From: Luteolibacter pohnpeiensis
Lineage (GTDB): Bacteria > Verrucomicrobiota > Verrucomicrobiia > Verrucomicrobiales > Akkermansiaceae
Length of the DNA stretch: 64,000 nt
Direction: 5' to 3'
NCBI RefSeq assembly: GCF_016595435.1
Contig: NZ_JAENIJ010000018.1
Span: 1 to 64,000 of the forward strand
The translations under genes were made by a program, and so were the position numbers. Position 1 is the first letter of the stretch, and every line of letters starts with the position of its first letter. Below are positions 44,208-48,621 of this stretch, piece after piece. A model generated the notes under the pieces. The model was not told where the DNA came from, did no database searches, and saw only the letters and a program-made list of their open reading frames with translations.

Positions 44208-45200
44208 TCAGTCAGTAGCGGGCTTTTCAGATGCTTTCGAATCGATCTCTGCCTGTGGCTTGGGCTTCGATACCCGGCCTTTCGGGACATTCCAGGCCGT
44301 CAGCCATTTTTGCCCCGTTTGATGAAATCCGCGGTCGACCAACCGTTGCTCCATATCCGGGAAATGAGCGGCTCCATAAAAAATCCCGATGGATTTCTCA
44401 CCCTCACCCAGTTCTCGATCCAGCACCTCCATGCAGCGAGCGTTCCGATCTGAAATGACAACGTTTTCCCCAGTCAATCCACTGACCTGATCTTCCGCTC
44501 CACCCAGGGTATGGATCAACGCCAGCTTCATGATATTCGACTTTCCGGTAATCAGTCCATACATGAGCCTTAACGGGTTAGGCTCGCTCACCTGGTCCTT
44601 TTTGGAGTTTAGCGCAAAACTGACCAAAGACTCCCCTCGCTCCGCCTGTTTGGCCTCAAATTCCGCAGCAGTCATATCGGCGTGGATGAAATTCTGCGCG
44701 GTGTAATCGACCACATCGACCTGACTCGAAAGATCCAGCATCTGCGCGGCCTTGTTGTAAATGGTCCGCAGTGCATTGAACTGCGGCGCTTTTTTGGCAG
44801 GTGCGGGTTTGATTTCAGGGGCTTCTTCATCCGTAGCATCATCGGCTGCGGCCTCCGCGTCATTTTCATCCGCATCCTCACCGGCGACTTCCGGTACCGC
44901 TGCTGGTTTCGCCGCTGCCTGACGACCAAGATTTTCGCCACCGATCATCTCGAACAGCACCACGTCGTAGCTTTTGAAAACCTCGTTGAGCTTTTCGTAG
45001 TATTTTTCATCCGCGATGTGGATGGCTCCGATCAAATCCAGGGTGACGCCGTCTTTCTCAAACCGCGTCACCGCAGTCTGCAATCGGGCGGATTTCGGAC
45101 TTTCCACCACTCGAACAAACTGTTCTTGGGCATTCGGCTGGGCGAACGACGCCTGAGCAAAGGAAAATAAGGCAGCGGCAAGAACCAAGGATCGTTTCAT
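44208..45200 (-). CDS. TraB/GumN-like (TIKI/PrgY superfamily) exported protein, 330 aa
   Basis: Signal peptide (LVLAAALFSFAQASFAQ), then DLIGAIHIADEKYYEKLNEV followed by YDVVLFEMIGG, the GxxH and ExxE-type signature of the TraB/GumN/TIKI superfamily of putative metalloproteases. A late IGIFYGAAHFPDMEQRL supplies the second His motif. An acidic, Ala-rich insertion lies at about residues 100-135. TIKI members are proteases; bacterial roles are less certain. It lies head-to-head with ispG. Confidence 0.8.
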   Translation of the reverse strand: MKRSLVLAAALFSFAQASFAQPNAQEQFVRVVESPKSARLQTAVTRFEKDGVTLDLIGAIHIADEKYYEKLNEVFKSYDVVLFEMIGGENLGRQAAAKPAAVPEVAGEDADENDAEAAADDATDEEAPEIKPAPAKKAPQFNALRTIYNKAAQMLDLSSQVDVVDYTAQNFIHADMTAAEFEAKQAERGESLVSFALNSKKDQVSEPNPLRLMYGLITGKSNIMKLALIHTLGGAEDQVSGLTGENVVISDRNARCMEVLDRELGEGEKSIGIFYGAAHFPDMEQRLVDRGFHQTGQKWLTAWNVPKGRVSKPKPQAEIDSKASEKPATD

Positions 45201-45310
45201 ATGTCAGAAGCTGGATTTCCCAAGAACAGCGTCTCCAACGGGTGGAATTGTCAGCAGAACCCGTTGTGACCGTTGCTCAGGGCGATGTTTTGGACTATAG
45301 CGGTTTTGAA

Positions 45311-47872
45311 ATGAAGTCGCCAGTCCCTTTGGAATATTGCCCGGATTTGCTCCGCTACACCCGTCGCACCACCCGCGAGGTCATGGTCGGAAATGTCGGG
45401 ATCGGCGCGCATCACCCGATCCGCGTGCAATCGATGATCACCTCCGACACGCGCAACACGCCGGCTTCCGTGAAGCAGGTACTCGATTTGGCGGATGCCG
45501 GATGCGAAGTCGTCCGCATCACCGCGCAGACCAAAGTTTACGCGGCAAACCTGGAAAACATCGCTCGCGAAGTCCGCGCCGCCGGATGCCAGGTTCCGTT
45601 GGTCGCCGACATTCATTTCAAGCCAGACGCCGCAATGGAAGCCGCCAAATGGGTGGAAAAAGTCCGCGTCAACCCGGGCAACTACGCGGATAAGAAAAAG
45701 TTCGAAGTCCGTGAATACAGCGATTCGCAATACGAAGAAGAGCTGGAGCGCATTCGCGAGGAATTCACTCCGCTGGTCCATCTTTGCAAAGACCTCGGCC
45801 GCGCCATGCGCATCGGAACCAACCACGGGTCGCTCTCCGATCGCATCATGAACCGCTACGGCGACACCCCGCTGGGCATGGTTGAAAGCGCGCTGGAATT
45901 CGCCCGCATTGCCCGCGATAACGACTACCACAACTTTGTGTTTTCGATGAAAGCGTCGAACCCGAAGGTCATGATCGAAGCCTACCGGTTGTTGGTCGCC
46001 CGGCTCGATGCGGAAGGCGCGGATTGGAATTACCCGCTCCACCTCGGCGTCACCGAAGCAGGCGATGGCGAAGACGGTCGGATCAAAAGCGCTATCGGCA
46101 TCGGCTCCCTGCTCGCAGACGGCATCGGCGATACCATCCGCGTGTCACTCACCGAAGACGCCATCCACGAAATCCCCGTCGCCAAAAAACTGGCAGCACC
46201 TTTCAATGACGTCTGCGCTTCAAAAAGTGGCTGTGGCGTCCCGCCGCAGGCCGTGTCGGCTGCGTCCCGCAGCCGTCTTCTGTCCGATGACACCACAAAA
46301 CTACAAATCAACTGGGATGCGGTCGAAAAATCCGAAGCCAGTTATTTGCCCCACTGGAGCGTCGAACAAGGAACCTACGCCGTCTGTTTCCGGCTCGCCG
46401 ATTCGCTTCCCGCTTCCGTGTTGGAACGTTACCAAGCGAAACATCAGGCACTATTGGCAGAACTCGAAATCCTGATGCGCGCCAGTGGATCGCGTAGCGC
46501 ACTCGACGAGATGTTGAAAGTGCGGAAAAAAATCGCCGACCTCCAAATTTCAGAAATCGATCCAGAGCTAGATCGTGGGCACGGCGAATGCCTTTTCAAA
46601 AACGAGCATTACGCCAAGCTGATGGTGGACGCACTGAAGCATTTCGATGGGGCGCGCTATGACCTTCTGGCCTGGGCCGTCATGCCGAATCATGTTCACG
46701 TGATTCTGAAACCAGCTGCGGGAGAAGAGTTGGAAAAAATTCTTCATTCGTGGAAGAGCTTCACGGCTCACGAGATCAACAAGCTCCGTGGTTCCGAAGG
46801 GAAGATATGGCAAAAGGAAAGCTATGATCATCTGATCCGCGATGGCGAAGATTTGAAGAATCAAGTGGCTTATGTTTTGAATAATCCAATCAAGGCTCGG
46901 CTTGAAAATTGGCAGTGGGTGGGAACGGCTTATGAAGATGTCGCAGCGGGACGCTGCAACCACGACCTGCGGCGGGACGCCGCAGCCACCGATGAAGCAA
47001 GCCACGAGAAACTCACGCCATCTTACGATCCGTTTTCTTATGCACGGCGCTCCAGTTCGGTGCTGACCGTGATGAGTCATGACCTCGGCGGCGACCACAC
47101 GGTGCGGGTATTCACGACGCAAGAACGTTGGAATGCCCTCGCTCATAAAATCTCCGCCATGGGCGATTTCAAACCGGAAATTATCCTCGAAAAAGCAAGC
47201 GTCATGGCCATCGATCCACGGGACGAAGCCGCGATCTCCGCGTTGAACGCCGACACTCAGCCGAGTTTGATCACCGTTGCCGACGGGCTCGATCTGGAAG
47301 TGATTCACGCCTTTCGCGAACTCGCCTTCAAGGCCGATCCACGCCACCCGATCCTGCTGAAGGACACGCTTCACCCACCGTCCGACGATACCGATTTCAT
47401 CGATGCCTTGCTGCCAGCTGCCATGAACATCGGTTCGCTGCTCTGCGATGGAATCGGCGATGCCATCCTCATTCGCGGTGAAAAAGCTCCCGGCCAATCG
47501 CTTCGTCTCGCCTACAACATTCTTCAAGCCGCCGGCACCCGGATCTTCAAAACCGACTACGTCGCCTGCCCGAGCTGCGGCCGCACGCTTTTCAACCTGC
47601 AATCGACCACCCAAAAAATCCGTGCTGCGACCGGCCACCTGAAAGGCGTCCGCATTGCTGTCATGGGTTGCATCGTCAACGGTCCCGGCGAAATGGCTGA
47701 TGCCGATTTCGGTTATGTCGGCGGCGCACCTAACAAGATCAATCTTTACGTCGGCAAAACCGCAGTGAAGTTCAACATCCCCGAAGCCGAAGCCGTCGAG
47801 CGATTGATCGATTTGATCAAGGAACACGGAAAATGGATCGACGCCCCGGTTGGAGAGCCCGTTGAAGTTTGA
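45311..47872 (+). CDS. ispG: 4-hydroxy-3-methylbut-2-enyl diphosphate synthase IspG carrying an in-frame RAYT transposase insert
   Basis: IspG makes HMBPP in the MEP isoprenoid pathway with a [4Fe-4S] cluster. From ATG 45311 (in-frame GTG at 45242 is less likely) the frame encodes 853 aa. Residues about 1-303 are the TIM barrel (HHPIRVQSMITSDTRNTPAS near the start). About 306-560 are a complete Y1-type REP-associated transposase. About 570-853 hold the central A* domain of the long plant/chlamydia-type IspG (PFSYARRSSS onward) and the cluster domain, with Cys 753 and 756 (ACPSCGRT), Cys 787 and Glu 794 (MGCIVNGPGE). Both IspG parts look intact, and the insert falls in the linker between domains. 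Confidence 0.93.
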   Translation: MKSPVPLEYCPDLLRYTRRTTREVMVGNVGIGAHHPIRVQSMITSDTRNTPASVKQVLDLADAGCEVVRITAQTKVYAANLENIAREVRAAGCQVPLVADIHFKPDAAMEAAKWVEKVRVNPGNYADKKKFEVREYSDSQYEEELERIREEFTPLVHLCKDLGRAMRIGTNHGSLSDRIMNRYGDTPLGMVESALEFARIARDNDYHNFVFSMKASNPKVMIEAYRLLVARLDAEGADWNYPLHLGVTEAGDGEDGRIKSAIGIGSLLADGIGDTIRVSLTEDAIHEIPVAKKLAAPFNDVCASKSGCGVPPQAVSAASRSRLLSDDTTKLQINWDAVEKSEASYLPHWSVEQGTYAVCFRLADSLPASVLERYQAKHQALLAELEILMRASGSRSALDEMLKVRKKIADLQISEIDPELDRGHGECLFKNEHYAKLMVDALKHFDGARYDLLAWAVMPNHVHVILKPAAGEELEKILHSWKSFTAHEINKLRGSEGKIWQKESYDHLIRDGEDLKNQVAYVLNNPIKARLENWQWVGTAYEDVAAGRCNHDLRRDAAATDEASHEKLTPSYDPFSYARRSSSVLTVMSHDLGGDHTVRVFTTQERWNALAHKISAMGDFKPEIILEKASVMAIDPRDEAAISALNADTQPSLITVADGLDLEVIHAFRELAFKADPRHPILLKDTLHPPSDDTDFIDALLPAAMNIGSLLCDGIGDAILIRGEKAPGQSLRLAYNILQAAGTRIFKTDYVACPSCGRTLFNLQSTTQKIRAATGHLKGVRIAVMGCIVNGPGEMADADFGYVGGAPNKINLYVGKTAVKFNIPEAEAVERLIDLIKEHGKWIDAPVGEPVEV
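46227..46274 (+). repeat. left REP pair of the RAYT unit
   Basis: Two hairpins: GTGG then CTGTGGC-GTCCC-GCCGCAG (one G-T pair), and GGCTGC-GTCCC-GCAGCC (perfect). Both have the same five-base loop GTCCC. The first is preceded by GTGG, the place where classical REPs carry the conserved tetranucleotide recognised by the cognate RAYT. The whole pair is nearly the reverse complement of 46943-46989. Confidence 0.9.
46943..46989 (-). repeat. right REP pair of the RAYT unit (inverted)
   Basis: Two perfect hairpins with loop GGGAC: GCAGC-GGGAC-GCTGC and CTGCGGC-GGGAC-GCCGCAG, ending in CCAC, the complement of GTGG on the left. Read on the minus strand, the order and loops are the same as in the left pair, with compensated stem differences, so it is an inverted copy. 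Confidence 0.9.
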
Positions 47873-47875
47873 GCC

Positions 47876-48157
47876 ATGTCAGAAACCGAATTACTGACCA
47901 AACCGATCGAACAAACATCGGTCGACACCCCATGGAATGTGGTGGTTTACGATGATCCGGTAAACCTGATGGAATATGTGACCCGGGTGTTGATGAGCAT
48001 TTTCGGCTACCATCAAACCCGCGCCACAAAGTTGATGATGGAAGTTCACGAGCAAGGTAGATCGATCGTCTGGAATGGAGATCGGGAGAAGGCCGAGTTT
48101 TACACCCAGCAGCTCCAGTCACATCAACTCAAAGCCTCGATGGAAAAAGCGGAATGA
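47876..48157 (+). CDS. clpS: ATP-dependent Clp protease adaptor ClpS
   Basis: Adaptor that delivers N-degron substrates to ClpAP. The 93-residue protein shows the ClpS core WNVVVYDDPVNLMEYVTRVL (N-end pocket region), FGYHQTRATKLMMEVHEQG and the final DREKAEFYTQQL. Starts 3 nt after the ispG stop and overlaps the following DUF2017 gene by 4 nt (ATGA), so the three are probably one transcript. Confidence 0.95.
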   Translation: MSETELLTKPIEQTSVDTPWNVVVYDDPVNLMEYVTRVLMSIFGYHQTRATKLMMEVHEQGRSIVWNGDREKAEFYTQQLQSHQLKASMEKAE

Positions 48158-48621
48158 ACCTGATGCCGACACTCGAAGGCGGACTCCGACTCGAAGCCGA
48201 ATCAGAAGTGGATTGGCAGATTCTCTATGCCATCCCGCACGATGCCGCAGGAACTGATCTCGCCAGTCGTCTGGGCGATTTGGTGACCGACGACTCACTC
48301 GCTGAAGATTGGAATGATTTCGTCGTTCCCGATTTAAAGTCCCAATTCGATAACCAGATTGAGCACGTCTCCGACGCTATTCGAGAGGCTCATGCAAGCG
48401 CCGAAGGGGAACGGGGAACCATCTCGATCAAGCCTGCGGAATCTTCCATTTGGTATGGCGTGCTGAACCAGGCGCGTCTTTCCCTGGAAGAAATGCACCA
48501 TTTCGGAAATCGCGATCAGGTTGATCTAACAGGACAGGACCCGAACCGCCGGACTGCGTTTTTCCGGTCTCAATTTTACTGTGCCCTCCAGTCAGAAATG
48601 CTGCGGCATGGGCTGATTTGA
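48154..48621 (+). CDS. DUF2017-like protein next to clpS, 155 aa
   Basis: A 155-residue acidic, mostly helical protein. In Actinobacteria, a DUF2017 gene commonly follows clpS, and the position, size and four-base overlap here fit the same pairing. Segments include LRLEAESEVDWQILYAIP near the start and SIWYGVLNQARLSLEEM late. Its role is unknown; neighbourhood suggests it works with ClpS or the N-degron pathway. The last 30 nt overlap the convergent nucleotidyltransferase gene. Confidence 0.6.
   Translation: MNLMPTLEGGLRLEAESEVDWQILYAIPHDAAGTDLASRLGDLVTDDSLAEDWNDFVVPDLKSQFDNQIEHVSDAIREAHASAEGERGTISIKPAESSIWYGVLNQARLSLEEMHHFGNRDQVDLTGQDPNRRTAFFRSQFYCALQSEMLRHGLI

Follow-up and report, generated by a model that had tools for sequence, protein, structure and literature searches.

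How can the gene of a biosynthetic enzyme hold a complete transposase within its reading frame, and is such an insert a domain that the enzyme has adopted, a passenger that it tolerates, or a segment that is removed before the enzyme works? The question is raised by ispG of Luteolibacter pohnpeiensis, located in the first 64 000 nucleotides of contig NZ_JAENIJ010000018.1 (the whole stretch that was analysed, called the window below), where a REP-associated tyrosine transposase (RAYT, or TnpAREP; REP, repetitive extragenic palindrome) lies in frame between two parts of the enzyme. The reading that we favour on the basis of sequence comparisons, with a probability of about 0.72, is that the insert is one of a set of site-faithful, horizontally mobile RAYT elements which would live as permanently translated domains of host enzymes.

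Positions 45311-47872 of the window form, on the + strand, a single open frame of 853 amino acids, from an ATG at 45311 to a stop codon ending at 47872; the same frame is already open from a GTG at 45242, from which it would encode 876 amino acids. It specifies a TIM barrel, a complete RAYT between inverted REPs, and the A* and Fe-S domains, in this order:

45311..47872, + strand: ispG-RAYT chimera, 853 amino acids (open frame; Pfam, NCBIfam, alignment)
45311..46192, + strand: IspG N-terminal TIM-barrel domain, residues 1-294 (Pfam GcpE at residues 21-294; IspG structures)
46227..46989, + strand: REP-to-REP element, 763 nt (759 = 3 x 253 without the 4-nt GTGG tag)
46227..46273, + strand: left terminal REP pair, starting GTGGCT, read as part of a linker (GCGVPPQAVSAASRS; inverted repeat)
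46304..46945, + strand: RAYT (HUH/Y1 transposase) domain, with the HUH motif NHVHV and a catalytic-type Tyr in QVAYVLNNP
46943..46989, + strand: right terminal REP pair, ending AGCCAC, read as part of a linker (CNHDLRRDAAAT; inverted repeat)
47027..47869, + strand: IspG A* and Fe-S domains (Pfam GcpE; alignment)

Pfam GcpE matches the chimera in two stretches (418 bits) that are split around Y1_Tnp, and the insert falls in the interdomain linker of IspG. C753, C756, C787 and E794, which we take to be the Fe-S ligands, are invariant in an alignment of 32 IspGs. The RAYT part is recognized by Pfam Y1_Tnp at residues 448-506 (25.1 bits for a cut-off of 23) and by NCBIfam REP_Tyr_transpos NF047646 at residues 428-531 (80.8 bits for a cut-off of 80). 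By sequence it matches the TnpArep of structure 4ER8 with an E value of 4e-6, and its NHVHV and QVAYVLNNP motifs align with chain positions 59/61 and 115, Y115F being a catalytic mutant of TnpAREP (PMC8266576). A preliminary description of the locus, made from the letters alone, had proposed an uninterrupted IspG-RAYT-IspG frame with the insert in the linker, intact HUH and Tyr motifs and a full set of cluster ligands; on all of these it was right. The REP ends are 47-nt arms, 85% complementary, and inverted REPs with a GT[AG]G tag flank the RAYT on both sides. In family profile, TnpAREP fold and HUH and Tyr motifs, the insert agrees with the RAYT/TnpAREP system (REPtron). The difference is that the described RAYTs are genes of their own with their own start, which is a trait of those members rather than of the fold, whereas the present ones are built into host enzymes as an internal domain, almost every host site having a lineage of its own.

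An AlphaFold2 model of the chimera (mean predicted local distance difference test score, pLDDT, 81.5; predicted TM score 0.66; 8 of the 40 rows of its alignment hold RAYT sequence) has the barrel, the RAYT and A* as mostly confident domains and a less confident Fe-S part (48-86 per block). Barrel residues 16-300 match IspG structures with Z up to 33.7, and 4ER8 is picked out by the fold of the model as well (E 6e-6, TMt 0.65); the VIA-align rows are filled by the barrel and are uninformative for the RAYT part. The suggestion that the translated REP ends act as linkers agrees with this model, in which the REP-coded stretches (residues 303-320 and 549-565) have a pLDDT below 50 and are predicted to be flexible.

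The gene so interrupted appears to be the only one of its kind. ispG is single-copy in the source genome, which is 98.8% complete. PF04551 finds a match in 70 of the 73 genomes of our genus set, many of them drafts, with one ispG each if pieces at contig ends are allowed for; no two N parts or two C parts of IspG were found in the 70 matching genomes except as such contig-end pieces. A second ispG elsewhere was rejected on the basis of the genome search and this survey.

At first the insert was described as unusual; it turned out to be one instance of a wide phenomenon. In the genus ispG occurs both with and without it, and 36 of the 73 genomes carry a RAYT at the same site (site 1), a count that rests, like the host counts below, on the 150 matches listed by the genus RAYT search, ranked by similarity to the IspG RAYT. 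The N part, the RAYT and the C part share one open frame in 28 of the 36 (two of them, G008 and G011, lose one end to a contig boundary), and 7 more are cut by contig ends and open as far as the sequence goes. One of the carriers, G059, is a single-contig genome of 5.3 Mb. Where a left tag could be located (G021 yielded none), the site-1 elements begin with GT[GA]GCT in codon phase 1, and they end with AGC[CT]AC, or a one-base variant of it, in phase 2, so that single elements at this site are 3n long without the 4-nt tag. Only 5 of the 34 RAYT-bearing ispG frames have an ATG in the interval from -45 to +8 codons around the RAYT start. As ispG and the transposase share one continuous frame, the RAYT would be produced chiefly as a domain within IspG. 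Of the 115 RAYT copies that were aligned, 110 have HUH and Tyr motifs intact and four are truncated. The RAYT ratio of nonsynonymous to synonymous divergence (dN/dS) is 0.07-0.32 in 12 of 13 IspG pairs; for the thirteenth, the window with L056, the RAYT value is not computable because the RAYT dS is saturated. The host parts of the chimeras have a dN/dS of 0.03-0.13.

RAYTs were found in at least 66 of the 73 genus genomes, and 101 of the 150 listed matches lie in open frames of at least 400 amino acids. The corresponding figure for a phylum-wide draw of 288 genomes is 17 of 150, to be taken as a rough control, as that search used the family profile, which ranks other RAYTs first. Frame length alone is no proof, and therefore the hosts of the fetched loci were checked by BLAST and Pfam; a long frame was discarded as a proof of embedding, L129, L267, L274 and L275 having the look, on visual inspection, of RAYTs whose open frame is spurious. 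At least 54 of the 73 genomes have a RAYT in a host that was checked in this way, distributed as follows among the matches listed:

IspG site 1: 36 genus genomes
MetH site 2: 23 genus genomes
LeuS: 19 genus genomes
CarB: 5 genus genomes
MetH site 1: 4 genus genomes
HsdR, SNF2 type: 4 genus genomes
HsdR, EcoEI type: 2 genus genomes
IspG site 2: 2 genus genomes
Adenosine deaminase, DUF5107/TPR protein, Eco57I-type protein and DUF1156 protein: 1 genus genome each

In the other hosts the RAYTs are accompanied by REPs of other types, some of which lack the GTRG tag. The second IspG site, within the A* domain, is used in L046 (G006) and L058 (G075), and L058 has two RAYTs in one ispG frame. Hosts of restriction-modification type (HsdR, Eco57I-type, DUF1156) were met in L110, L116, L117, L123, L131, L132, L106, L130 and L266. 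The adenosine deaminase frame (L049, 1170-3797) has an N-terminal Cas_NE0113-like match, the RAYT lying between. Of 11 long-frame loci from outside the genus, five are embedded: HsdR L266, LeuS L270, MetH L271 and AlaS L268 and L272, the RAYT of the last being detected by a custom profile and not by Pfam. As for the rest, L267, L274 and L275 are apparently stand-alone RAYTs with a spurious frame, L269 is ambiguous, and L273 and L276 are without a RAYT profile match over the score cut. The two AlaS hosts, L268 (G159) and L272 (G351), come from two different families of the phylum and hold a more distant RAYT, also in frame.

Do these RAYTs keep to their sites? In a tree of 109 RAYTs the 13 host labels need only 13 changes, for a minimum of 12 and a mean of 66.9 after shuffling (none of 200 shuffles was as low). 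The 33 IspG site-1 RAYTs form one clade (support 100/98), no member of which lies outside ispG among the classified matches listed. Single clades were also obtained for MetH site 1 (100/98) and HsdR (100/97) and, more weakly, for CarB (90/16).

Do they move between hosts? A tree of the host IspGs has 64 rows, 28 with a RAYT and 36 without (five order outgroups are included, 13 rows with the N or C part missing were dropped, and remnants count as without); presence changes 15 times on it, and at least 11 of these changes are forced. RAYT subtypes A and B are interspersed on this tree (11 changes for A, 10.4 when shuffled). For four pairs of host sisters with different subtypes, which were picked after the trees had been seen and have a host support of 97-100 (bootstrap) and 33-100 (SH-aLRT), the RAYTs are rejected as sisters by the approximately unbiased test (p-AU from 1e-5 to 1e-110). 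Amino-acid identities of host and RAYT are weakly correlated (0.28 and 0.24), while those of the two host halves correlate at 0.83. In three IspG pairs the divergence of the RAYT is far below that of the host, and the low stretch has a sharp edge on the right: L008/L085 (p 3e-8), L079/L085 (p 2e-7) and L004/L060 (p 9e-5), values that are uncorrected and concern the closest pairs, two of which share a genome. The best case is MetH of G015 and G017 (L036/L037), where the RAYT has 0/72 fourfold differences versus 0.49/0.41 for the host (p 1e-18). The two genomes are identical over 733 nt in a row, i.e. the 671-nt element plus 20 nt to its left and 42 nt to its right, and the sequences flanking this block differ at 12-29 (left) and 4-28 (right) positions per 100 nt. 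Other MetH pairs of this kind are G069/G008 (p 1e-8) and one that involves the single-contig genome G004 (p 7e-5). Traces of the opposite process are seen as well: five IspGs (G006, G019, G035, G066 and G087) have clear in-frame remnants, others (G007, G022, G077 and more) have short linkers that are possible scars, and near-sister hosts differ by the presence of the element (G071 and G077; G059 and G083). The sequence comparisons thus show transfer between species into the same site, for IspG and MetH, and loss by in-frame deletion.

From this pattern we infer homing catalysed by the RAYT, along the following lines. The ispG insert is a RAYT element with REPs at its ends, read in one frame with the gene that contains it, and sister RAYT lineages keep to set positions in MetH, LeuS, CarB, HsdR and further large proteins. 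The element would insert, or be recombined, into a fixed permissive linker and be translated with its host; placed in a linker or loop, it would leave the host enzyme working. Stops and frameshifts in the element would be purged along with the host, whose need for an open frame would keep stops out of the element, and the element would itself be under selection at the protein level. The RAYT may promote its own spread into empty alleles, in a homing-like manner, via recognition of the REPs and cleavage and rejoining of single-stranded DNA; homologous recombination of the short flanks perhaps helps. The host gene would supply expression and protection, the element returning nothing obvious, so that the life cycle would be that of an intein minus splicing. 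Whether one may go further and speak of a homing-like class of elements (a RAYT without splicing, a permanent domain of core enzymes, one REP/RAYT lineage per site, and HUH-catalysed re-invasion of empty alleles across species by way of single-stranded DNA) is, to our mind, an even bet.

A number of observations weigh against the mobile-domain reading. Site fidelity is not strict: on the RAYT tree three changes are needed for LeuS and two for MetH site 2 (stand-alone RAYTs need four). Over all IspG pairs the median fourfold divergence is 0.64 for the RAYT versus 0.48/0.50 for the host, i.e. the RAYT is the faster one. None of the pairs listed for LeuS, CarB and HsdR has a RAYT significantly less diverged than its host, and for these three proteins the idea of a recent RAYT transfer was given up, as there was no sign of it among those pairs. 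In G073, 1 of the 36 site-1 carriers, barrel and RAYT are in different frames, owing to a real deletion or an assembly error, and the RAYT of G028 has D in place of the Tyr. Some GTG, TTG or ATG codon is present near the RAYT start in 31 of the 34 ispG frames, so that the RAYT may be translated separately from an internal start. The notion that all elements are multiples of 3 by design is true of single IspG-site elements minus the tag and fails for some MetH elements, the length of which is not 3n. With up to 2 mismatches allowed, the ispG REP occurs at just 7 places in the genome, ispG itself accounting for two; this count gives no sign of an active population of REP doublets of this type (REPINs), and a large one was rejected. 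Finally, in two of the IspG pairs, L008/L085 and L079/L085, divergence is reduced upstream of the insert too, at about residues 220-300.

This last point bears on the main rival, ordinary allele exchange, which we hold possible without thinking it probable. The RAYT would have inserted once per site, long ago, and have been moved since then by natural transformation and homologous recombination, the transposase being uninvolved. With a left-flank divergence that is reduced from about residue 220 in both pairs, the transfers may be due, partly or wholly, to plain recombination between alleles; the rarity of the IspG REP in the genome and the single RAYT clade at most sites also speak for this rival. 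But the identical block of the MetH pair L036/L037 (671 nt + 20 + 42) is very short for plain recombination, and HUH and Tyr are kept in nearly all copies under purifying selection, which argues that the activity must have a use.

A second rival is domestication, in which the RAYT would serve the enzyme or the cell, for instance in regulation or REP binding. The preliminary description had the host either tolerate or adopt the transposase. Purifying selection on the RAYT and its persistence in many species would suit adoption, which was nevertheless not borne out and which we judge very improbable. A tolerated mobile passenger fits better, because presence is patchy, with close relatives lacking the RAYT, because five remnants testify to losses by deletion, and because subtypes A and B are swapped between close relatives; like inserts in unrelated enzymes add to this.

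Removal of the insert at the RNA or protein level by an undescribed mechanism is very improbable. The comparison of the element with an intein-like passenger holds good for site fidelity and horizontal spread, and the long inverted REP arms may fold in RNA; it does not hold for excision. No Hint domain is found among the Pfam and NCBIfam matches of the window chimera with E up to 1, and 45000-48200 has no Rfam match (E up to 1), group I and II intron RNAs included. Furthermore, the frame is kept through the element and the remnants, G073 excepted, and linker lengths vary. That the gene is decaying or artefactual, i.e. misassembled or a pseudogene beside a second ispG, can be practically discounted: there are many drafts in the set and the frame of G073 is broken, but the chimera also occurs in the single-contig genome G059, ispG is single-copy and the hosts of the RAYTs show the low dN/dS given above.

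Among known systems, inteins with homing endonucleases resemble the mobile RAYT domains in their way of life: as far as described in the accounts drawn on here, they are in-frame inserts of conserved genes, with site-specific lineages, patchy presence, horizontal spread (seen here for the IspG and MetH sites) and loss. They differ in that here no protein-splicing domain was found, the nuclease is an HUH/Tyr enzyme, and the product seems to retain the insert. Rickettsia palindromic elements and intragenic REPs are palindromic repeats that lie in frame in genes and are translated (PMC3733652), but they are short and without a transposase, and no site-specific, horizontally mobile lineages are described for them in the part of that source used here; the ispG element, at 763 nt, encodes a transposase. 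IS200/IS605 elements and IStrons share the HUH/Y1 transposase chemistry, and IStrons also render insertions harmless (PMC4227781); no intron was found in the ispG chimera, in which harmlessness would come from frame-keeping and not from splicing.

That REPs and Rickettsia palindromic elements occur within genes is known, the GTAG type of intragenic REP being most numerous in the verrucomicrobium Opitutus terrae (PMC3733652), and so are REPs which lie inside tnpAREP genes and keep the frame (PMC6006769). A few long RAYT proteins have been set aside as fusions or annotation errors (PMC6006769). TnpAREP cleaves REPs, and the spread of RAYTs and REPs is described as unresolved (PMC8266576). Among the best-ranked matches in the open-access literature, preprints excluded, there was no paper that describes a RAYT as a domain of an ispG, leuS or metH product. 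Since all states of a RAYT clade (present, swapped, remnant and absent) are visible at fixed sites in dozens of related genomes, the question of RAYT/REP dissemination becomes testable, and the homing-like class, if true, would be one answer to how RAYTs, described as more housekeeping-like than transposase-like, spread and persist. Our results suggest that housekeeping enzymes, tRNA synthetases included, can apparently carry an active-looking transposase as a domain, that long RAYT proteins should not be dismissed as annotation errors, and that selfish elements have ways besides inteins to live in core genes.

The host gene was initially called essential. This is less certain than assumed, because a gene for HMG-CoA reductase is present in the same genome (G000:C254:79193-80236, L260), beside UbiA, PEP-utiliser and DUF3419 genes. 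ispH is present in the source genome along with ispG, and the methylerythritol phosphate pathway may not be its only isoprenoid route. The essential-gene point is better made by LeuS. The genome has two RAYTs, one in IspG and a second, different one in LeuS (G000:C44:61885-62418; frame L035 1470-4952, - strand), inserted into the editing domain between the positions that correspond to residues 365 and 376 of Thermus LeuRS in an alignment, and this chimeric LeuS is the genome's only LeuS over the family cut-off.

Two minor observations may be added. The linkers around the RAYT have expanded to in-frame tandem or low-complexity repeats in L072 (G085), L047 (G028) and L012 (G017). In the window, the stop codon of ispG is followed after 3 nt by a frame of 93 amino acids (47876-48157), presumably ClpS-like, as judged by eye.

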